Assembly: GCF_013410565.1 (NCBI RefSeq)
Contig: NZ_JACCFO010000001.1
Location: 1,674,001 to 1,738,000, forward strand
Source: Streptomonospora nanhaiensis
GTDB taxonomy: Bacteria > Actinomycetota > Actinomycetes > Streptosporangiales > Streptosporangiaceae
Direction: 5' to 3'
Length of the DNA: 64,000 nucleotides
Position numbers and translations under genes: made by a program. The notes beneath the pieces were generated by a model, which saw nothing but the letters and a program-made list of their open reading frames with translations, did not search any database and was not told the DNA's origin. Below are positions 7,166 to 55,910 of this stretch, piece by piece (position 1 is the first letter of the stretch; the number at the start of each line of letters is the position of its first letter).

Positions 7166-7863
7166 ATGCGCAGAACCGCGTCTACGCACCCGACCTGGCG
7201 GGCCACCACCCCCTCCCAGCCCGCCTACGGCGAACTGCTGAGGTTCGCCGCGTCCTTCACCAAGGACTTCTCCGCGATCGTCCCCTGGCAGTGGGTCCCC
7301 GGGCTGGTGATGACCGCCGCGCGCGGCGACCGCCGGGCCGCCCCGGGCGGCCCCGCCTCCTGCCGCGTCGCCTGCGTGGGCGGCGGCACCGGCGCCTCGG
7401 CGCCCGCGTGGCCGCCCTCCACCGAGGTCCGCCAACTGGCGGCCTCCCCCATCTGGCTGGCCATCGGCGACCGCCGCGCCGCCTTCATCGCACCGGCGTC
7501 CGGACATCACCGCGGTCGGGCGTGGATCACGACCGACTCCGACGACGTGCGGACCGCCAAGGGCTTCTTCGAACTCGCCTGGTGCGGCGCCCGGCGCGGC
7601 TCTCCCGCGCGGGCCACCGAGCGCAGGTCGGCGGTGCTGCTGTGCCTGGCCCGCGGGCTCACCGACGCCGCCATCGCCAAGCGGCTCAACGTCACCGACC
7701 GCACGGTGCGCCGCGAGATCAGCTCGCTCATGCGCGACACCGGCTCCACCACGCGCTTCCAACTGGGCCTGCGCACCGCGCTGGGCGGCGTGGGGCTGCC
7801 CTCGCTGGCCCTGCCGCCGGGGCCGGCCGACGCCGAGGAGTACGACGGCCAGGAGGTGTCGGC

Positions 7864-7867
<4 letters not shown>
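7166..7867 (+). CDS. LuxR-type transcriptional regulator without receiver
   Basis: A 233-residue protein starts at ATG 7166, with CGAGG 8 bases upstream. The C-terminal 60 residues are a LuxR-type HTH (CLARGLTDAAIAKRLNV, then DRTVRREISSLM). The N-terminal 150 residues show no receiver Asp and no Walker motif, so it is a pathway-specific regulator of the small LuxR type often found in antibiotic clusters. Its stop overlaps the GTG of the giant synthase (GTGA), so regulator and synthase are translated from one message. The regulator would therefore be autoregulated if it acts on this promoter. Confidence 0.75.
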
Positions 7868-14772
<6,905 letters not shown>

Positions 14773-46325: not shown

Positions 46326-47261
46326 TCAGGTCCGGGTGAACAGGTCCAGGAACGCGCAGGTGAACGCGGCGGCGCTGCGGGCCGCGACCGGTTGCCAGCG
46401 CGCGTCGGAGGCGGCGTCCTTGCCGGTGAGCAGGTCGGAGATGCCGCGCACCACCAGGACGTCGGCGTGGTCGGCGAGGGACGCCCCGTGCAGCACGCCG
46501 TAGCCCTCCATCTCCACGGCGACCGCGTCGCCGGCGAAGGCGCGGACGCGCCGGGCGGTGGGAGAGTCGGCGTGGGCCAGGAGCTTGCCCCCGGCCGCGA
46601 TGGGCTTGACGAACGCGCGGGGCGCCACGCCCGGCTCGGGGTCGATGATGTAGTCGGTCCACTCCTGGCGGAACACGACGTCCATGGCGCGCTGCACCAC
46701 CGCGTGCGAGGGCACCGCGGTCCGGGCGCGCGGCCAAACGTCCTCGCCGGCGCCCTCCTTGGCGCTCTCGTAGTCGTAGACGGCGTCGGCGGCCACCACG
46801 TCGCCCAGCCGCACGTCCTTGAGGCCGCCAGCCACGCCCGCGAACACGATCAGCTCGGGCGCGAACGCGGTGCGGGCGCGCTCGACGTGCAGGGCGGCGC
46901 CGGTGTTGCCCGGTCCGATCTGGGCCAGGGCGACCCGGCGCGCCCGCTCCCGGCCGCGGAAGGTGCCCAGGCGGTAGAGGGTGCCGCTGACCGTGCGCTC
47001 CTCGAACGGCCCGCCCAGGTGGGCGGCGACGGCGCGGTACTCGCAGTCGACGGCGGTGATCACCACCGCACCGCCGGACAGTCCGGGACCGTCGGCCCAG
47101 CCGGGCGCGGCGCGCTCCGCGGGGCCGGCGGGCGTGTCCGGGCCGGGCTCCGGCGGGGCGTACTGGTGGGCGGAGGAGCCGCGGCCCACGCTGACCGGGC
47201 CGGTGAAGGTCATGCGGCCGCCGTGGTTGGCGATGCCCTCGTTGGGGGTGGGGGTGCTCAT
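46326..47261 (-). CDS. nucleoside phosphorylase-fold (nucleosidase) protein with N-terminal adaptor-like motif
   Basis: A 311-residue protein of the PNP/UDP superfamily. The fold is complete: VVITAVDCEYRAVAAHLGG, IVFAGVAGGLKDVRLGDVV, substrate motif AVAVEMEGYGVLHG, and VVRGISDLLTGKD with the catalytic Asp. This fits MTA/SAH-nucleosidase-like enzymes that cleave N-glycosidic bonds of purine nucleosides. Ahead of the fold lie about 65 extra residues holding TFTGPVSVG at 18-26. The protein encoded just upstream in the same operon ends in TFSGPVSVG, so the two may bind each other through this element. Nucleosidase domains with such extensions occur in predicted bacterial conflict systems, where nucleotide or NAD depletion kills the host cell. 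That role is inference here. Confidence 0.8.
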   Translation of the reverse strand: MSTPTPNEGIANHGGRMTFTGPVSVGRGSSAHQYAPPEPGPDTPAGPAERAAPGWADGPGLSGGAVVITAVDCEYRAVAAHLGGPFEERTVSGTLYRLGTFRGRERARRVALAQIGPGNTGAALHVERARTAFAPELIVFAGVAGGLKDVRLGDVVAADAVYDYESAKEGAGEDVWPRARTAVPSHAVVQRAMDVVFRQEWTDYIIDPEPGVAPRAFVKPIAAGGKLLAHADSPTARRVRAFAGDAVAVEMEGYGVLHGASLADHADVLVVRGISDLLTGKDAASDARWQPVAARSAAAFTCAFLDLFTRT

Positions 47262-47313
47262 CGGGTGGTCCGTCCTTCGGCGGGGGCGGTGCGGGCGGTG
47301 GCGCGGGCCGGGG

Positions 47314-49119
47314 TCACGGCCGCTTCGGGCTGTCGGCGAGGCTCTGGGTGGCCGTGGAGCGGGGGCCCACCGACACCGGTCCGGAGAAGGTGGCGGTGCC
47401 GCCGAACTGCTGCAGGCCGAGGTTGATGTTCTGCACGATGCCGTCGAGGTCGCTGGTGTCGTAGCCCTCGCGCTTGAGCGCGCGGCTGAGCGAGGTCAGG
47501 CAGCGCTTGGTGATGGCGCCCGAGACCCGCCGCACGTCGTGGAGCTGGAAGAGCTGACGGTAGTCGGTGCCGGCGGCGGCCTCGCGGATGCTGAGCCGCG
47601 GGGCGAAGTCGATGTAGGTGCGCCCCTCGCGCAGGTGGCGCCGGTAGTCGGCGGCGAAGCGCTCCGCCCGCCAGCGGGTGAGGTTGTGGCTGACGAGTTC
47701 GGTGACGAACCCACCGAGGTCGGGCAGCAGCCGGCGCAGCGCCGTGAGCGCGCGGCGGCCCCCGGACTCGGTGCCGGCGTCGACGGCGGCCATGTGGCGC
47801 GGGTCGATGGGCGGCATCACGAACGTCTCGCCCTCCACCCGCAGCGAGCCGCCGTGGACGCTGAGGCGGACGAAGGCGGTCACCACGATCTGGCCGTCCC
47901 ACATGCTGACGCCCGCCTCCAGGAAGTGCCGGGCGCGCTCGTGGGAGCCGCGGATGAACTCGGCCACCCATTCGGGGCGCAGCGCCCCGGTGGCCGGGTC
48001 GACGAGTGCGTCCCGCACGGTCTCGGGGGTGTGGGTGCGCCGGCCGGTGAGGAACACGCAGTCGGCCACGTCGACGGGGCGGGGGGTGGCGCGGCCGCCG
48101 TCCTCGGCGCCGAGTCGGCGCAGGTCGGTGCGCAGCCCCTCGTACAGGGCCTCGACCAGCGCGGGACCGGAGCGCGAGGGGGTGCCGTGGGCGCCGCCGG
48201 CCTCGCCGCCGTGGGTGTCGCCGGGTTCGCCGGTGTCGCCGGGCGCCCGGGCGGGGCGCAGGTCCAGTGTCAGCGGCCACTCCTGGTAGCGCACGCCGGT
48301 GCCGATGAACGGGTTGAACCGGCTGAAGAAGCCGACGGGCACGGTGCCGACGCCGCTGGCCGAGGCGCGCTCGCCTCCGTCCTGGCGCAGGATGTCCTCG
48401 ACGGCGGCGCCGCGCCGCTGGTGGTACCACAGCGCGATCACGAAGGCTCCGACGGCGTAGCAGGCCAGCGCCGCCGGCCACGGCATGATCCGGAACACGG
48501 CGGGGGCGTCGGGATCGGCGGCGCCGGGCGCGTAGGGGTCGGACTCGGGCGTGGTCCACGGGTCGGGTTCGGGCGGCGCGGCGGCCATGTAGGCCACGTA
48601 GCCGGCGACCACCACGCACATCAGCAGGACCGCACCGGCCGCCACGGACATCGCCTTGCCCTGGAGCGCGGTGCCCCGGAATCCCGGCTGGCCGGTGCCC
48701 TGCTGGAAGGCGGTGAGCGTGACCAGGGCGAAGGCGGCGAGCACGAGGAGCGCGACCACCAGGTGCACGAACAGCAGCGGAACCCACAGGCTCGCCAGCG
48801 CGGCGCCGGCGACGCTCGCGGCGCGTCGCGCTCGGGCGCATTCGGCGACCACGGCCCGGGGGTCCAGGCCGGGTTCGCGGGAGAGGGCGCGGTAGGCGTG
48901 GTCCTGGCGTTCGGCCAAAACCCGCCGCCGGAAGTCGACGTCCTGCCAGGCGGCGCAGCGCAGCACCGTGGTGGGGTCGAACTCGCTGACCCCGGCGATG
49001 TCGTCGACGCCGCGCGGGGGCGGCGGCTGCGGGGACGGCGGGGGCTGCTGCGGGGGCGGGGGCTGCGGGGACGACTGGGGGCCGCCCGGCGGCGGCGCGG
49101 GGCGCTGGGACTCGGTCAC
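47314..49119 (-). CDS. multi-TM protein with C-terminal adaptor-like motif
   Basis: A 601-residue protein from GTG 49119. The first 36 residues are almost only Pro/Gln/Ser. Hydrophobic segments lie near 100-140 (SLWVPLLFVHLVVALLVLAA), 158-180 and 214-233. The last 360 residues form a soluble domain with EWVAEFIRGSHERARHFLE and TYIDFAPRLSIREAAAG; I do not recognise it. The C-terminal 45 residues read DLDGIVQNINLGLQQFGG then TATFSGPVSVGPRSTATQ, matching the nucleosidase N-terminus at 14 of 25 aligned positions. It lies 52 bases before the nucleosidase on the same strand. I infer a membrane sensor or anchor that recruits the nucleosidase by like-with-like binding. Confidence 0.65.
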   Translation of the reverse strand: MTESQRPAPPPGGPQSSPQPPPPQQPPPSPQPPPPRGVDDIAGVSEFDPTTVLRCAAWQDVDFRRRVLAERQDHAYRALSREPGLDPRAVVAECARARRAASVAGAALASLWVPLLFVHLVVALLVLAAFALVTLTAFQQGTGQPGFRGTALQGKAMSVAAGAVLLMCVVVAGYVAYMAAAPPEPDPWTTPESDPYAPGAADPDAPAVFRIMPWPAALACYAVGAFVIALWYHQRRGAAVEDILRQDGGERASASGVGTVPVGFFSRFNPFIGTGVRYQEWPLTLDLRPARAPGDTGEPGDTHGGEAGGAHGTPSRSGPALVEALYEGLRTDLRRLGAEDGGRATPRPVDVADCVFLTGRRTHTPETVRDALVDPATGALRPEWVAEFIRGSHERARHFLEAGVSMWDGQIVVTAFVRLSVHGGSLRVEGETFVMPPIDPRHMAAVDAGTESGGRRALTALRRLLPDLGGFVTELVSHNLTRWRAERFAADYRRHLREGRTYIDFAPRLSIREAAAGTDYRQLFQLHDVRRVSGAITKRCLTSLSRALKREGYDTSDLDGIVQNINLGLQQFGGTATFSGPVSVGPRSTATQSLADSPKRP

Positions 49120-49300: not shown

Positions 49301-49975
49301 TCACGGTCGGCGCACCGGTTCGCGCGGGGCCGGCCGCCCCGCCTCCCACGCGGACGCGAAGACGCGCGCCGCGAAGTCGTAGAGGTGTCCGGGTCTTCGG
49401 GCGACGATACAGGGGGAGTTCCGGCCGTGTGCGGTACTCAGGTAAAGGGTCAGGTAGGCGACCTTGTCGGTCATGACCACCCGGAACAGGTTGGGCAGGT
49501 TGTAGAAGCGGATCTCGCAGTGGTCCCTGCCCTTGGCCGCCTCGGCGAGGTAGGCGGCGTTCAGCCGCACCTGCTCACCCAGGAGGCCGGGGCGGAAACC
49601 GGGGTCGCGGGCGCGCAGCTCGTCCTCGCGCGCCGCCAGCCAGGTGTCGCGGCCCGGCTCGGGGTCGGGCAGCAGGATCTCGACCGCGCGCAGCGGCCAC
49701 TCGGTCCCCGTCCACAGCGGCTGGAAGGTCTCGCGGGTGAGTTCGCCGCCGCGCCCCGCCAGGACGCGCAGCCACTCGCCCCGGGGGATGTCGGCGGCGA
49801 TGTCGGTGCTCGCCGAGCGCTGGGTGCGGTAGACGCGCTCCACGCCCAAACCGGTGGCGCGGCCCAGCAGGCGCAGCACCAGCCGCCGGGCGCGGCGGGA
49901 CAGCAGCCAGCCCACCGCCGCGACGAGCGCGGTGGTCGCCAGCGAGCTGGCCAGCCCGAGGAGGAACTCCGCCAT
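49301..49975 (-). CDS. one-TM protein with DUF5919-like C-terminal domain
   Basis: A 224-residue protein. ATG 49975 is chosen to give MAEFLLGLASSLATTALVAAVGWLL, one N-terminal membrane helix, followed by a basic RRARR stretch. The soluble part has a phrase IRFYNLPNLFRVVMTDKVAYLTLYLS and ends YDFAARVFASAWE. That run resembles the C-terminal domain of proteins annotated DUF5919, often found fused to HTH or signalling modules; the match is from memory and weak. It lies 181 bases before the multi-TM gene in the same orientation, and may belong to the same response system. Confidence 0.5.
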   Translation of the reverse strand: MAEFLLGLASSLATTALVAAVGWLLSRRARRLVLRLLGRATGLGVERVYRTQRSASTDIAADIPRGEWLRVLAGRGGELTRETFQPLWTGTEWPLRAVEILLPDPEPGRDTWLAAREDELRARDPGFRPGLLGEQVRLNAAYLAEAAKGRDHCEIRFYNLPNLFRVVMTDKVAYLTLYLSTAHGRNSPCIVARRPGHLYDFAARVFASAWEAGRPAPREPVRRP

Positions 49976-50124
49976 CACGCCCCCTTCCGGCCGGGCGGCG
50001 AGCGACGGCGGCCCGCCCGTCCGGGCGGGCTGCCGCACCGCCGCGCCCACGGGCCGCCGCGCCGGCCGGAGGGTCCGGCCGCCATTTCTGGTCAGTTCGA
50101 CCATAAGGGGGCGACCGGGATCAG

Positions 50125-50135
50125 GTCAAGGTGAC
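50125..50135. promoter_or_regulatory. small palindrome GTCA-AGG-TGAC
   Basis: An 11-base perfect inverted repeat lies between the divergent one-TM and Nudix genes, 33 bases before the Nudix GTG. It could be an operator of the Nudix-HTH regulator itself. Confidence 0.4.
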
Positions 50136-50167
50136 TTTTAGGTGGTGGCGCGTTGTACGTTGGCGGG

Positions 50168-50899
50168 GTGACCACCGAGAGGCCGAGCCGCCCGAGCGGC
50201 CCGTTCCCCGCCGCCGTGACCGTGGACCTGGTGATCCTGACCGTGCGCGAGGGGGCGCTGCACGTCCTGCTCATCGAGCGCGGCAACGAGCCGTTCCGGG
50301 GCAGCCCGGCGCTGCCGGGCGGCTACGTCCGCCCGTGGGAGGGGCTGGACGAGACGGCGCTGCGCGAACTGCGCGAGGAGACCGGCCTGGACGGCCGCCG
50401 CCTGCACCTGGAGCAGCTGCGCAGCTACGGCGCCCCCGACCGCGACCCGCGCGGCCGCACGGTCACGGTCGCCTACCTGGCCCTGGGCCCCGACCTTCCG
50501 GTGCCGGTGGCGGGCACCGACGCCCACGCGGCCCGGTGGGTCCCGGTGGCGCGGGCGCTGGGCGAGGGGTTCGGCCTGGCCTTCGACCACGCCGCGATCC
50601 TGGCCGACGGCGTGGAGCGGGCCCGCTCCCAACTGGAGTACACGACGGCGGCGACGGCCTTCTGCACCGAGCCGTTCACCATGAGCGAACTGCGCGGCGT
50701 CTACGAGGTGGTGTGGGGGATCTCCCTGGACCCCAGCAACTTCCGCCGCAAGGTCACCCGCACGGCGGGCTTCGTGGTGCCCACGGGCGAGCGCCGCGCC
50801 ATGGAGTCGGGCCGCCCCGCCGCCCTGTACCGCAGGGGCCCCGCCCGCGACCTGTACCCGCCGCTGCTGAGATCGAGCGAGATGACGGCCTCCGGATAG
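50168..50899 (+). CDS. Nudix-domain regulator, NrtR-like
   Basis: A 243-residue protein from GTG 50168; an upstream TTG at 50153 is possible. The N-terminal Nudix domain has a full Nudix box, GYVRPWEGLDETAL followed by RELREETGL, so it may still hydrolyse. The C-terminal part (TEPFTMSELRGVYEVVWG, NFRRKVTRTAGFVVPTGE) is the winged HTH of NrtR/YjgD-type regulators. NrtR proteins sense ADP-ribose-type NAD metabolites and control NAD or sugar genes. Adjacent to a nucleosidase/TM pair, this suggests nucleotide metabolism is a theme of this block, though no target gene is clear. Confidence 0.8.
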   Translation: MTTERPSRPSGPFPAAVTVDLVILTVREGALHVLLIERGNEPFRGSPALPGGYVRPWEGLDETALRELREETGLDGRRLHLEQLRSYGAPDRDPRGRTVTVAYLALGPDLPVPVAGTDAHAARWVPVARALGEGFGLAFDHAAILADGVERARSQLEYTTAATAFCTEPFTMSELRGVYEVVWGISLDPSNFRRKVTRTAGFVVPTGERRAMESGRPAALYRRGPARDLYPPLLRSSEMTASG

Positions 50900-51820: not shown

Positions 51821-53341
51821 TCAGCGGCCCTCCAGCGCCCCCTCCAAGCGGGTCTCCAAAGCCGCCAGCTCGCTCTCGGGCGGGGGGCCGTCGGACTGGC
51901 GGAGGAGGCGGTTGAGGTCGGTGTAGAGGACCTGGGTGTAGCGGGGGTAGTAGGGGCTGGTGGGGCGGTGGCGGGCGTTGGCGACCTCGTCGAGGAGCAG
52001 GCGGGTGTACTCCTCGCCCCGGCGGTCCGCCACCGAGGCGCCGGAGTCCCCGGTGCCGCCCGGGCACGGGCCCGCCACCGCGCCCGAGTAGGCGTCCTCG
52101 CGGGCGGGCGAGTAGCCGCCGCAGTAGAGGAGGCGGCGCTGCTGCTCGGGGGCGGTCAGGTACTCCACCAGGTCCCACGCCGCCTCCGCCTGGTCGGAGT
52201 CGCGGCTGACCGTGAGGCTCTGGCCGCCCAGGACGCTCTCGCCGGGCAGCGGCACGACGTCGAACTCGATCGGCTCGGCGCCCGCCGCCGCCCCGCCGCC
52301 GCCCGAGCCGTCCTCGGCCTCGGCCGGCGGACCGCCCGCCTGCTCGCCGCGCGCCGGCTCGGCGGCCGGGTCGCGGGCCAGCACGTCGTACCAGCCGGGC
52401 CAGTTGCGCATGGCCACGACCTCGCCGTCCACGAAGTGCCGGAAGCTGTCGTACTCGGTGGCACCGTCGCCGAGCACACCGGGGTGCACGGTTCCGTCGC
52501 CCAGCCCCCGCGCCACCAGGTCCACCGCCGAGCGGCCCGGGCCGGAGGCGAACGCCACCGGCCGGTCCTCGTCGGCCTGGCCGCCGCGCATGCCGTACAT
52601 CAGCTCCAGCATGTTGACGGTCAGCCCCTCGTAGGGCGCGAACTGGCCGCTGTAGCCGTAGGCGACGCCCTCGGCCTCGGCGGTGGCACGCAGCAGGTCC
52701 AGCGTGCCGGCCCAGTTGCGCCCTTCGAGGTCGGCGGCGTCCAGCAGGTCCGAGCGGTAGTAGAGCAGCCCCACGTCGGCGATGAACGGCACCGCCCACA
52801 CCTTCTCGTCGTAGGTGACCGAGGCGATGGAGGGGCCCAGGACCGCGTCGACCGCGACGTCGCCGGGCACCGGCTCCACCCAGCCGTTGCGCGCGAACTC
52901 CGCCGTCCACTGGTTGTCGATGTTGAGGACGTCGTAGGTGAACCCCTCGGTCTGGGTCCAGCGCACGAACTCGGCGTGGACCAGGTCGGCGGCGCTGGAG
53001 ATCTCGACCAGCTCCGCGCGCGGCTCGCCGGGCGCCCGCCGGGCGTTCCACTCCTCCACGAACAGCCGGTAGAGGCCGGTGCCCGAGACGTCCTGCCGGG
53101 TGACCACGGTGATGGTGGCCGGGGCGCCCGCGCCCATCGGCCCCGATGCCAGCAGCCCGCCGACCAGGGCCAGGACGGACAGCACGGCGGTGACGGCCGT
53201 CGCCAGCACCGCGCGCGGCCGGCGGTGGTCCATGAGCAGCCAGCCGAGTGCCCGGGAGGACCCGCGCCGGCCGCGGAGGCCGGGGACGGCGCCCGCGCGG
53301 CCATCCGGGGGCGGCGGGAGCGGAGGCGGTGGTGCGGTCAT
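51821..53341 (-). CDS. membrane-anchored solute-binding protein (family 1)
   Basis: A 506-residue protein starting at ATG 53341. There is a cytoplasmic Pro-rich leader, then one transmembrane helix near 47-66 (AVLATAVTAVLSVLALVGG) with no lipobox, so it is tethered by a helix. The extracellular domain is a type II solute-binding fold: YDVLNIDNQWTAEFARNGWV, VWAVPFIADVGLLYYRSDL, FVDGEVVAMRNWPGWY and AAWDLVEYLTAPEQQRRLL, close to sugar-binding SBP family 1. No permease or ATPase gene is nearby. It follows the VWA/SBP gene on the same strand, so it may be a sensor rather than a transporter part. Confidence 0.75.
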   Translation of the reverse strand: MTAPPPPLPPPPDGRAGAVPGLRGRRGSSRALGWLLMDHRRPRAVLATAVTAVLSVLALVGGLLASGPMGAGAPATITVVTRQDVSGTGLYRLFVEEWNARRAPGEPRAELVEISSAADLVHAEFVRWTQTEGFTYDVLNIDNQWTAEFARNGWVEPVPGDVAVDAVLGPSIASVTYDEKVWAVPFIADVGLLYYRSDLLDAADLEGRNWAGTLDLLRATAEAEGVAYGYSGQFAPYEGLTVNMLELMYGMRGGQADEDRPVAFASGPGRSAVDLVARGLGDGTVHPGVLGDGATEYDSFRHFVDGEVVAMRNWPGWYDVLARDPAAEPARGEQAGGPPAEAEDGSGGGGAAAGAEPIEFDVVPLPGESVLGGQSLTVSRDSDQAEAAWDLVEYLTAPEQQRRLLYCGGYSPAREDAYSGAVAGPCPGGTGDSGASVADRRGEEYTRLLLDEVANARHRPTSPYYPRYTQVLYTDLNRLLRQSDGPPPESELAALETRLEGALEGR

Positions 53342-53561
53342 CGGCAACCTCCCTCTTCCCGCGCCCGGGGGTGCGGCCGCCGGGACGTCCGCGGGGTAGG
53401 CGGGGTCGGGGCGGCGGACACGGTCGGCGGGGTGGGCGCGGTGGGCGGGGTCGGCAAGGCGGGCGCGGCGGGAACCGTCCACTCGGCGGGCGGGGCCGAC
53501 ACGGGGAGGGTGATCGGCGCGGCGGCGGCGCGGGCGCCGGCGGCTTCCGGTTCGGACGTGG

Positions 53562-55910
53562 TCACTGGGCCCGCGCCTCCCCCAGGACGCGCAGGGCGGC
53601 CTCGCCGGGGCTGTCGGCGTCGGCGGGGACGCAGTCGACCAGCGGGTGCTCGGCCAGCTCCGGCAGGCCCGCCACGTCGCAGGGGTCCACGCGCCCCCAG
53701 CGGCGGGTCTCGTCGCCGACCGCGACCAGCCGCACGCGCACCCCGGCGGCGTCGAGGCGATCGGCCGTCGCATCGGCGCTGAGGCCGCCCCCGGCGGGTT
53801 CGCCCACGCCGTCGGTGAAGACGACGAGCACGGGCTCGGCGGCGGCCGCGCCCTGCTCGCCGCCCGCGTCGGCGCCCTCGGGCGGATCCTCCTCGGGCCG
53901 GGCGTCGGCCCAGGCCGCCAGGGCCTCCGCGCCCTCGGCGACCACCTCGCGCAGCGGCGTCGCCTCCCGGTCGGGCGCGAGCGCGGCCAGCTCGCGCACG
54001 ATGAGTCCGCCGGTCCGCACCTGCGGGTCGACCAGGGCGGTCGCGTCGGCCGCCGAGGGGCCGCGCCCCTGCGGGAACGCCCACAGCCCCAGCGCGTCGC
54101 GCGGCCCGGCCGACTGCGCCAGCACGGCGGCCTCCTCCAGCGCCGTGGCGAACTTGCGGTTGGGCGTGCCCATGGACGAGGACCTGTCGACCGCCAGCAG
54201 CAGCGCCGCGCTCCCCTGCGAGGAGTCGTAGAGGTCGAGTACCGCGCCCGCGGCGTCGCGCCACGCCTCCGGGTCGCCCTCGGGGTTGGGCAGCTGCGCG
54301 GGCGCCGAGCCGACCCCCATCGTCACGCGCCCGGCCCCCGCCTCGTTGCGGTAGCCCGCGTAGGCGCCCGCCGCCGACGGGCTCGCCCCCGCCTCGCGGT
54401 AGGGCCGGTCGAAGGCGGCGGGCGGGTACTCGGTCATGAAGCCGTCCAGGTAGCGCTCGAAGCGCCGCAGCTCGGCGGCCACCTCGGGGGCCTCCACCAC
54501 GGGCCGCGCCGCGTCCGCGTCGGCGCCCGCGCGCACGCCCGTGACGCGGACGAAGGGGTGGTCCAGGACGGGGAGTTCAGAGGAGTAGAGCGCGGTCAGC
54601 TCCGCGCCGGAGTCGGTCGGCCCCGGGCAGGCCGCCCGCCAGGCGGGTCCCTCGGCCGCCTCGTAGACCGCCGCCTCGGTGGTCAGCGCGGCGACGGGCA
54701 CGGTGTCGTGAGCGTGCTGGGCGACCTGGCAGACCAGGTCGCGCTCGGTGTGGGCGGTGAGGCCCAGGGACAGTTCGTGCTCGATCTCGGCGGCCCGGTC
54801 GGCGTCGAGCAGGTCGCCGCCGGGGGCGATGGCGCCGTTGGCGGCGTAGAGGAAGGCCGTGTGCAGCATCGCGGCGGCGGAGTCGCCGGGATCGGCGCGG
54901 GCGACGCGCACCCCGGCCGGGCCGACCGCCTCGCGCAGGGCCGCGTAGGGGTCGTCCAGCACCACGGCGTCGGGGTCGTCGCCGGTGACCTCGGCCGCCA
55001 GGTCGCGCGGCACGGCCAGGACGAGCGGGGTGAGGCGGGTGGCCTCGCCGACGTCGATCGCGGTGACCTGGGTGAGGGGCGCGCCGCCGTCGGGCGGCGC
55101 GGTGGCGGCGGGACTGCCGGCGGAACCGGCCGCGCCCGCGGCGCTGCCGCCGCCCAGGTCGTCGGCGGCGGTGGGGGCGCCGTCGGCGGCGCGCGCGGCG
55201 AGGGCGTCGCGCACCATCAGCGCCTCGACGGTGGAGTCGGGGATCCAGACGTGCGGCAGCGGTCCGAGCCGGGAGTCCCAGGTGCCCAGGAGCGCGTTGC
55301 GCATGCGCTGGCCGTCGTCCACGGCGTAGACGGTGACGCGGACACTGCGGCAGCGCTCGCCCGAGCCGCCGTCGGCGGCGCGCTCCTCGGCGAAGGCGGC
55401 GGCGACGGCCTCGACGGCGGGCTCGCTGTCGGGGGTGGTGGCGACCACGATCTCGGTCGGCGGCGCGCAGGAGTCGTCGAAGGGGGAGGACAGCAGGGCG
55501 CCCAGGAGGACGAAGACGGCGGCCGGGGCGAGGACGTAGCGGGCGAGGGTCAGGGCGACCCGGGGCTTGCCGTCGCGCTGGGGGAACAGCGCGGCGAGGC
55601 GCCGCCGCAGGCGGGCGGCGCGGCCGAGGGGAAGGGCGCCCCCGGGTGGTGCAGGGTCAGAGGAGGCGCCGGGGGGCGGTCCGGGCGGCGCCAGCAGCGC
55701 CCACCACCAGACTCCGGCGACCAGCCAGACGAACACCGATCCGGCGAGCACGTACCAGAGGGCCTGGACCCCCCACTCGGGCGCGGAGTCCGGAACCCCG
55801 GCACCGAGGACGCCGGAACTCAGGGTCGCGATGCCGAAACTCAGCCACGTCAGCTCACGCAGCAGCCCGGTCAACGGCGCCTCGCCGCCCTGCCTTCCCT
55901 CCTCCTCCAC
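53562..55910 (-). CDS. membrane VWA protein with SBP-like extracellular region
   Basis: A 782-residue protein from GTG 55910. Two or three transmembrane segments lie at the N-terminus (ALWYVLAGSVFVWLVAGVWWW, YVLAPAAVFVLLGALL). An SBP-like region follows (TEIVVATTPDSEPAVEAVAA, THRLMPLVLAV-type strand at about 290, AAMLHTAFLYAANGAIA). The C-terminal 230 residues are a von Willebrand A domain with MIDAS DRSSSMG, a conserved TPLRE and LVVFTDGVGEPAGG. VWA with SBP-like domains is known in actinobacteria without firm function. It is in an apparent operon with the orphan solute-binding protein, 220 bases apart; both may form an extracellular ligand-sensing or adhesion complex. Confidence 0.75.
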   Translation of the reverse strand: MEEEGRQGGEAPLTGLLRELTWLSFGIATLSSGVLGAGVPDSAPEWGVQALWYVLAGSVFVWLVAGVWWWALLAPPGPPPGASSDPAPPGGALPLGRAARLRRRLAALFPQRDGKPRVALTLARYVLAPAAVFVLLGALLSSPFDDSCAPPTEIVVATTPDSEPAVEAVAAAFAEERAADGGSGERCRSVRVTVYAVDDGQRMRNALLGTWDSRLGPLPHVWIPDSTVEALMVRDALAARAADGAPTAADDLGGGSAAGAAGSAGSPAATAPPDGGAPLTQVTAIDVGEATRLTPLVLAVPRDLAAEVTGDDPDAVVLDDPYAALREAVGPAGVRVARADPGDSAAAMLHTAFLYAANGAIAPGGDLLDADRAAEIEHELSLGLTAHTERDLVCQVAQHAHDTVPVAALTTEAAVYEAAEGPAWRAACPGPTDSGAELTALYSSELPVLDHPFVRVTGVRAGADADAARPVVEAPEVAAELRRFERYLDGFMTEYPPAAFDRPYREAGASPSAAGAYAGYRNEAGAGRVTMGVGSAPAQLPNPEGDPEAWRDAAGAVLDLYDSSQGSAALLLAVDRSSSMGTPNRKFATALEEAAVLAQSAGPRDALGLWAFPQGRGPSAADATALVDPQVRTGGLIVRELAALAPDREATPLREVVAEGAEALAAWADARPEEDPPEGADAGGEQGAAAAEPVLVVFTDGVGEPAGGGLSADATADRLDAAGVRVRLVAVGDETRRWGRVDPCDVAGLPELAEHPLVDCVPADADSPGEAALRVLGEARAQ

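Follow-up and report, generated by a model that had tools for sequence, protein, structure and literature searches.

Matched terminal motifs in a membrane protein and a neighboring nucleosidase: a candidate NrtR-regulated signaling module in actinomycetes

Two adjacent genes within the window (the whole 64,000-nucleotide stretch of Streptomonospora nanhaiensis DNA that was analyzed) encode a multi-transmembrane (TM) protein and a nucleosidase that carry a matched motif, the former in its C-terminal tail and the latter in its N-terminal head. Motif-matched pairs of this kind recur in dozens of actinomycete loci, and the motifs co-vary within pairs. We read the locus, with a probability of about one half, as a motif-coupled signaling module in which the TM protein would activate the nucleosidase by tail-to-head assembly under the control of a NUDIX-NrtR regulator. 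The support in the sequences is of four kinds, namely, matched co-varying motifs, conserved pairing, intact catalytic residues, and a conserved regulator with its operators.

The gene pair and its shared motif

The nucleosidase gene (46326 to 47261, minus strand) encodes a protein of 311 aa with a PF01048 domain of MTAN-like fold (Pfam E = 2.9e-19). The domain runs from residue 66 on, which bears out the 65-residue N-terminal extension given in the preliminary description; the extension contains the core motif TFTGPVSVG at residues 18 to 26 (47184 to 47210). Three residues of catalytic type (E74, E252, and D276) are invariant across nine homologues, and the protein thus combines a PF01048/MTAN-like fold with the catalytic Glu/Glu/Asp set. 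In the structural model (mean pLDDT 58, with parts of the core at 70 to 88), the best Foldseek match is the MTAN structure 3dp9 (TM-score 0.75 by target length), and the N-terminal 59 residues are unstructured in the monomer. The protein scores far below the NCBIfam equivalog cutoffs for both MTAN (56.3 of 169 bits) and futalosine hydrolase (48.5 of 124.7 bits). Its only matches in PADLOC-DB 2.0.0 are a generic PN-superfamily effector and PDC-M60C; that database yielded no system-defining protein set, and neither the TM protein nor the third conserved gene described below has a match in it.

The TM gene (47314 to 49119, GTG start) is also on the minus strand and encodes 601 aa, with the nucleosidase gene following downstream after a gap of 52 bp. 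The AF2 model of the TM protein (pLDDT 79, pTM 0.75) places TM helices within residues 87 to 247 and an alpha/beta domain at 260 to 565, while the tail at 569 to 600 is disordered (pLDDT <50). From hydropathy and the distribution of positive residues, the protein would have three to four TM helices and a cytosolic C terminus, and its large C-terminal domain is probably cytosolic. The protein belongs to no Pfam, NCBIfam, or PADLOC family, including the transporter families of Pfam, and a contig-level genome scan with this protein alone as the query gave no match. Foldseek found no significant match to its model in the PDB (best E = 0.026). The top weak matches are mostly SRPBCC/START-like helix-grip proteins, and we note them as a lead only.

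The core motif of the TM protein, TFSGPVSVG, lies at residues 577 to 585 (47365 to 47391). Both open reading frames and both motifs are present where they were first described, although the earlier wording that the TM protein ends with this motif was loose: it is near the C terminus, and 16 residues come after it. The matched segment, delimited by local alignment and motif-profile search, comprises about 30 residues in each protein, that is, residues 7 to 39 of the nucleosidase (47145 to 47243, minus strand) and residues 566 to 598 of the TM protein (47326 to 47424, minus strand). The similarity previously put at 14 of 25 positions is real, and our alignment sets it at 16 identities in 33 columns with a score of 72, whereas shuffled partners scored 24.6 on average (SD 5.3). 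A short DNA duplication is not the source of the match, since several of the matched residues are encoded by different codons in the two genes (e.g., Ser by TCG versus AGC). When a profile of the motif family was run against the whole genome of the window, these two genes were the only significant matches (E = 1.7e-8 and 3.7e-8; the next match had an E of >0.8), a result that speaks to exclusivity rather than independent discovery, as the profile contains both proteins. Although short motifs with many G, A, V, and N residues could resemble one another by chance or through low complexity, this explanation is refuted by the shuffled controls and the non-cognate controls given below, as well as disfavored by the genome search, and we give it practically no weight.

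Relatives, partners, and co-variation of the motifs

Among 100 related actinomycete genomes, 25 have relatives of the TM protein, and one further relative is on a Streptomyces plasmid. Nearly all full-length members inspected have a variant of the C-terminal motif, roughly N-x-G-[VI]-x4-GG-x(3-5)-G-x-x-A-x-G-x-x-A, and the TM calls that lack it are L017/L075, L053, L068, and L074. At most loci, the next gene lies 0 to 60 bp downstream on the same strand and begins with the matching motif. It encodes either a nucleosidase or a DUF5955-like helical protein of approximately 115 to 130 aa; 7 of the 12 small helical partners scanned match DUF5955 (best, 4e-9), a family on which our literature search found no paper. 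At two loci, L055 and L057, the tail motif is present with no recognized partner in the stretch read. Most TM relatives are paired with the DUF5955-like protein and with no recognized enzyme, so the general output is something other than nucleotide cleavage. The coupling through the motif that was proposed in the preliminary description gains from these results: rather than being confined to two genes, the motif recurs in dozens of loci within a conserved neighborhood, co-varies within pairs, and is found with different partner domains. Weak motif matches elsewhere in the genome of locus L069 (L123 and L129) were discarded as unrelated open reading frames.

Some loci have additional features. 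On the Streptomyces griseorubiginosus plasmid NZ_CP107767.1 (L012, 61915 to 64044), both members of a motif-matched TM/small-protein pair (WP_330294147.1 and WP_330294148.1) are annotated as hypothetical; the plasmid is mobilizable, with AAA ATPase and ATP-dependent endonuclease genes alongside. A TIR-like protein (L073, about 7750 to 8590, plus strand) adjoins a small-partner TM locus, and its C-terminal end has several Gly/Asn-rich repeats of a similar motif kind (GVNHGTVIGTANGPLHTG...). Partners with two motif-like copies ahead of the helical domain were observed in L059 (about 7930 to 8500) and L061 (1063 to 2673). The partner in L061 is continuous with a longer acidic protein, which indicates that the motif repeats are on the partner side.

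Co-variation was clear across the 23 loci of the first set for which both ends were available, in which the mean cognate tail/head score was 71.9, compared with 33.2 for non-cognate and 24.6 for shuffled pairs (permutation p = 1e-5). Cognate similarity was found in all 23 loci, and the excess was also present within the nucleosidase-type and within the small-partner-type loci. With 20 named loci added (43 in total), the cognate mean was 66.7 versus 37.5 for non-cognate pairs (p = 1e-5), the former being lowered by badly extracted heads in two of the added loci; the excess again held within each partner type. It is smaller in the nucleosidase clade (63.5 versus 47.0) because the motif is fairly conserved there. 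The window pair (FSGPVSVG/FTGPVSVG) and a pair from the same genus in genome G005 (VDGVVSAG/VSGIVSAG) have different motifs that are each internally matched, with cognate scores of 72 and 74 and crossed scores of 45 and 29. Further matched barcodes are those of L072 (MSNVQNQPGA/MQNVQNQPGA) and L052 (GGTFNGPVAAG/GGTFNGPMAAG). Tail similarity was correlated with head similarity when TM-body similarity was partialled out (r = 0.46, p = 5e-5), with a mild bias toward cognates due to the picking of segments by tail-to-head alignment. The motif very probably mediates a specific homotypic contact between the TM protein and the nucleosidase, and this is the step of the proposed mechanism with the strongest support.

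The motifs flank the gene junction in almost all loci, as would fit a functionless remnant left when a gene was split or duplicated at that point. We rejected this explanation, which is highly improbable, on the basis of codon analysis and gene order. Among identical residues, 312 of 606 have the same codon in both genes, close to the 304.6 expected from codon usage, so the match is kept at the protein level and is not a DNA copy. Furthermore, the gene order in L064/L100 is reversed while the motifs are still at the C terminus of the TM protein and the N terminus of the nucleosidase, and a relic would not be expected to co-vary over dozens of divergent loci.

Regulator, neighboring genes, and a second motif-coupled set

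The preliminary description treated the locus as a sensor/effector pair, and this gene set was incomplete, as it lacked a NUDIX-NrtR regulator with tandem operators and a third conserved gene. The regulator gene (50153 to 50899, plus strand) is divergent from the pair, is a conserved neighbor, and has Pfam matches to NUDIX (2.8e-18) and NrtR_WHD (2.7e-16). Its Nudix box (GYVRPWEGLDETALRELREETGL) is complete; the strict pattern was found in 17 of the 25 NUDIX open reading frames tested. The divergent promoters contain two copies of the 21-bp site TTAWRGTCN5GACYWTAA, mostly 33 to 34 bp apart, and sites within four mismatches were found in 26 of 29 nucleosidase-locus regions. In the window, these are putative operator 1 (TTCTGGTCAGTTCGACCATAA, 50086 to 50106, one mismatch) and putative operator 2 (ATCAGGTCAAGGTGACTTTTA, 50120 to 50140, three mismatches), which lie 34 bp apart. 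The NUDIX and NrtR_WHD domains, together with a palindromic operator conserved across loci in the divergent promoter, are those of an NrtR-type system.

The third conserved gene (49301 to 49975, minus strand) encodes a membrane-anchored protein of approximately 224 aa, and its homologues suggest a start near 49975 instead of 50104. Its core (RWVRVLAGRGNELTRDGF...HGRNSPC) is strongly conserved. Pfam assigned the protein to no family with confidence, the candidates DUF5919 and MS_channel being far below the cutoff. This gene was present at 7 of 10 first-set nucleosidase loci, all 10 of which have the NUDIX gene. It precedes the TM gene in the window and in G005 and follows the nucleosidase gene in most other loci.

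We also searched 84,980 species genomes with conserved peptides of the nucleosidase core, patterns that contained neither the motif nor the TM protein. This search returned 25 named loci, 4 of them at the same places as first-set loci, and the TM protein was adjacent in 24 and the divergent NUDIX-NrtR gene was present in 23. The loci are from Planotetraspora, Planomonospora, Nonomuraea, Sphaerimonospora, Actinomadura, Acrocarpospora, Thermomonospora, Herbidospora, and Sphaerisporangium, as well as Nocardiopsis potens, one Thermomonosporaceae MAG, and one Actinoallomurus MAG. No defense-island context was found in the window. At 51821 to 55910, a gene for a solute-binding protein is unusually paired with an adjacent gene for a protein of 782 aa that has a weak vWA-like region, both on the minus strand.

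A second motif-coupled nucleosidase/TM pair of the same genome was likewise missing from the earlier account. At L076:8310-12162 (about G000:C1:5237300-5241200), genes for a NUDIX-NrtR protein, a second nucleosidase, and a 659-aa multi-TM protein occur in succession, and the TM protein is of a different family from that in the window. The shared motif is VGIQAG, with a RHIM-like IQxG core, and is found past the catalytic domain of the nucleosidase (GQVGIQAGQVTG) and near the N terminus of the TM protein (ANVGIQAGAVHN). Pfam RHIM had no match in the proteins scanned. The termini are therefore swapped relative to the first set, with the nucleosidase motif C-terminal or internal and the TM motif N-terminal. 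The same gene order and shared motif are found in 10 further loci from other genomes (L143 to L152), with scores of 55.8 for cognate and 44.9 for non-cognate pairs (p = 5e-4) and 23 for shuffled pairs, and a GTCN5GAC palindrome lies ahead of the NUDIX gene in 10 of the 11 second-set loci. As predicted from their sequences, two membrane families pair with nucleosidases via matched motifs under related regulators. A resemblance of the helical C terminus of the second nucleosidase to the DUF5955-like partners was not accepted (hhalign probability of 16%, E = 0.0016).

Proposed mechanism, alternatives, and known systems

From these data, we infer a homotypic assembly, a direction from sensor to effector, a substrate, and a stress or immune role. 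The TM protein, seated in the membrane, would have a flexible tail after a large C-terminal domain that is probably cytosolic, and a cytosolic or membrane-level cue would cause the protein to cluster. The tail motif would then template or bind the matching N-terminal motif of the nucleosidase, which would thereby be assembled and switched on, or released; by analogy, amyloid or beta-solenoid templating is the likely form of contact. As its substrate, the enzyme may take a purine nucleoside or nucleotide (ATP or an NAD-derived or SAH/MTA-like compound) and cleave its N-glycosidic bond; the output would be a nucleotide-derived signal or else depletion and arrest. The divergent repressor on its tandem operators would set the level of expression and probably answers an ADP-ribose-like or NAD-related metabolite, ADP-ribose being known to free MsNrtR from DNA (PMC6800001). 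Since the NUDIX-NrtR link suggests control related to NAD or ADP-ribose, the nucleosidase may have as its substrate a nucleotide that, on being broken down, exerts feedback on expression.

The evidence as to the effector side is divided: a catalytic partner and the swapped second set favor the nucleosidase, whereas the variability of the partners and the C-terminal position of its motif favor the TM protein. In known amyloid signalosomes, the motif is at the C terminus of the effector and the N terminus of the sensor; applied to the first set, this arrangement would make the effector the TM protein and not the nucleosidase. A reversed direction is a reading that we consider rather unlikely: the nucleosidase or DUF5955-like protein would act as the sensor or generate the signal, and the TM protein would be a motif-activated pore effector, in the manner proposed for HeLo/BELL proteins. 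The TM protein is the constant member of the pairs, its motif is placed like that of BELL and HET-S effectors (PMC7889193), and PNPases have been predicted to generate second messengers to which membrane proteins respond (PMC7159879). However, the termini are swapped in the second set, and the large domain of the TM protein, if cytosolic as modeled, would exceed the needs of a pore.

Another reading, which we consider unlikely, is constitutive docking: the motif would be a tag that holds a metabolic nucleosidase at a membrane protein for salvage or channeling under NrtR control, with neither a switch nor a role in conflict. It would accord with the usual role of NUDIX-NrtR regulators in NAD or sugar metabolism (PMC6800001), with the nearness of the nucleosidase fold to MTAN, and with the genes for sugar ABC transport that lie close by in the window. 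However, the nucleosidase does not reach the MTAN and futalosine hydrolase cutoffs, the TM protein matches no transporter family and has non-enzyme partners elsewhere, and a static dock needs no locus-specific barcodes.

The reading as a motif-coupled signaling module can be tentatively extended, at somewhat less than even odds, to a widespread class of NLR-independent amyloid/beta-solenoid signalosomes in actinomycetes. Membrane proteins whose tails carry locus-specific barcodes would nucleate the assembly of cognate nucleosidases or DUF5955-like adaptors as a stress or anti-phage switch under NUDIX-NrtR control linked to NAD/ADP-ribose, in at least two independent architectures (tail-to-head and head-to-tail) that are both represented in the genome of the window.

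Several known systems share parts of this arrangement. Detocs contains an ATP nucleosidase, DtcC, together with a sensor kinase and response-regulator phosphorelay. As in Detocs, a PNP-superfamily nucleosidase is tied to a membrane protein within one operon, but Pfam found no kinase or response-regulator domain in the pair or the third gene, and the coupling here would be through the shared motif. The BASS1-10 motifs were reportedly described by Dyrka et al. in 2020. These bacterial amyloid signaling sequences pair BELL-domain effectors with NLRs (reviewed in PMC7889193), and our loci are similar in having adjacent genes in filamentous actinobacteria and matching terminal motifs of about 20 to 30 residues in many variants. 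They differ in that no NLR or BELL domain was found, the multi-TM protein takes the NLR/BELL place, and the partner is a nucleosidase or DUF5955-like protein. Although the products of adjacent genes share a short terminal motif, as in NLR-amyloid signalosomes, the locus is set apart from these because the defining NLR (NB-ARC/NACHT plus repeats) is absent by Pfam from the window genes and the TM relatives scanned.

In fungi, PUASM motifs pair PNP_UDP effectors with NLRs, and PUASM peptides form fibrils and prions (PMC9815663). The likeness lies in a PF01048-family nucleosidase whose terminal motif is matched in the product of the neighboring gene; the fungal partner is an NLR, the fungal motif is FxGxGxQxxGxGxF, and the effector motif is C-terminal in fungi and N-terminal here. 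The bDLD/EAD conflict systems (PMC8195603, PMC7159879) also have PNPase effectors and homotypic adaptor recruitment in multicellular actinobacteria, but through a folded death-like or EAD domain rather than a short unstructured motif, and no NTPase, caspase, or vWA-MoxR component was recognized in the operon here. As in NrtR regulons such as that of MsNrtR (PMC6800001), a NUDIX protein with an NrtR winged helix is divergent to its target with a palindromic operator in between. Here, however, the target is a motif-coupled operon and not NAD biosynthesis, and the operator is a tandem TTAWGGTCN5GACCWTAA compared with the mycobacterial GTTTTCGA-N7-TCGAAAAC.

A 2021 review of amyloid signaling asks whether NLR-independent signaling amyloids exist in bacteria and notes that searches have been biased toward NLR/executor pairs (PMC7889193). 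The loci reported here are concrete, testable candidates for such amyloids. In them, a co-evolving barcode would directly connect an enzyme that cleaves nucleotides with a membrane protein. The loci would also supply matched and mismatched pairs of natural origin, suited to experiments on specificity, and would place DUF5955, along with several uncharacterized membrane families, in a functional context for the first time. No description of a membrane/nucleosidase motif pairing was found in the open-license PMC literature. Matched terminal motifs in neighboring genes are already known as a principle; what appears to be new is a membrane/nucleosidase version that has barcoded tails and NrtR control and lacks an NLR.
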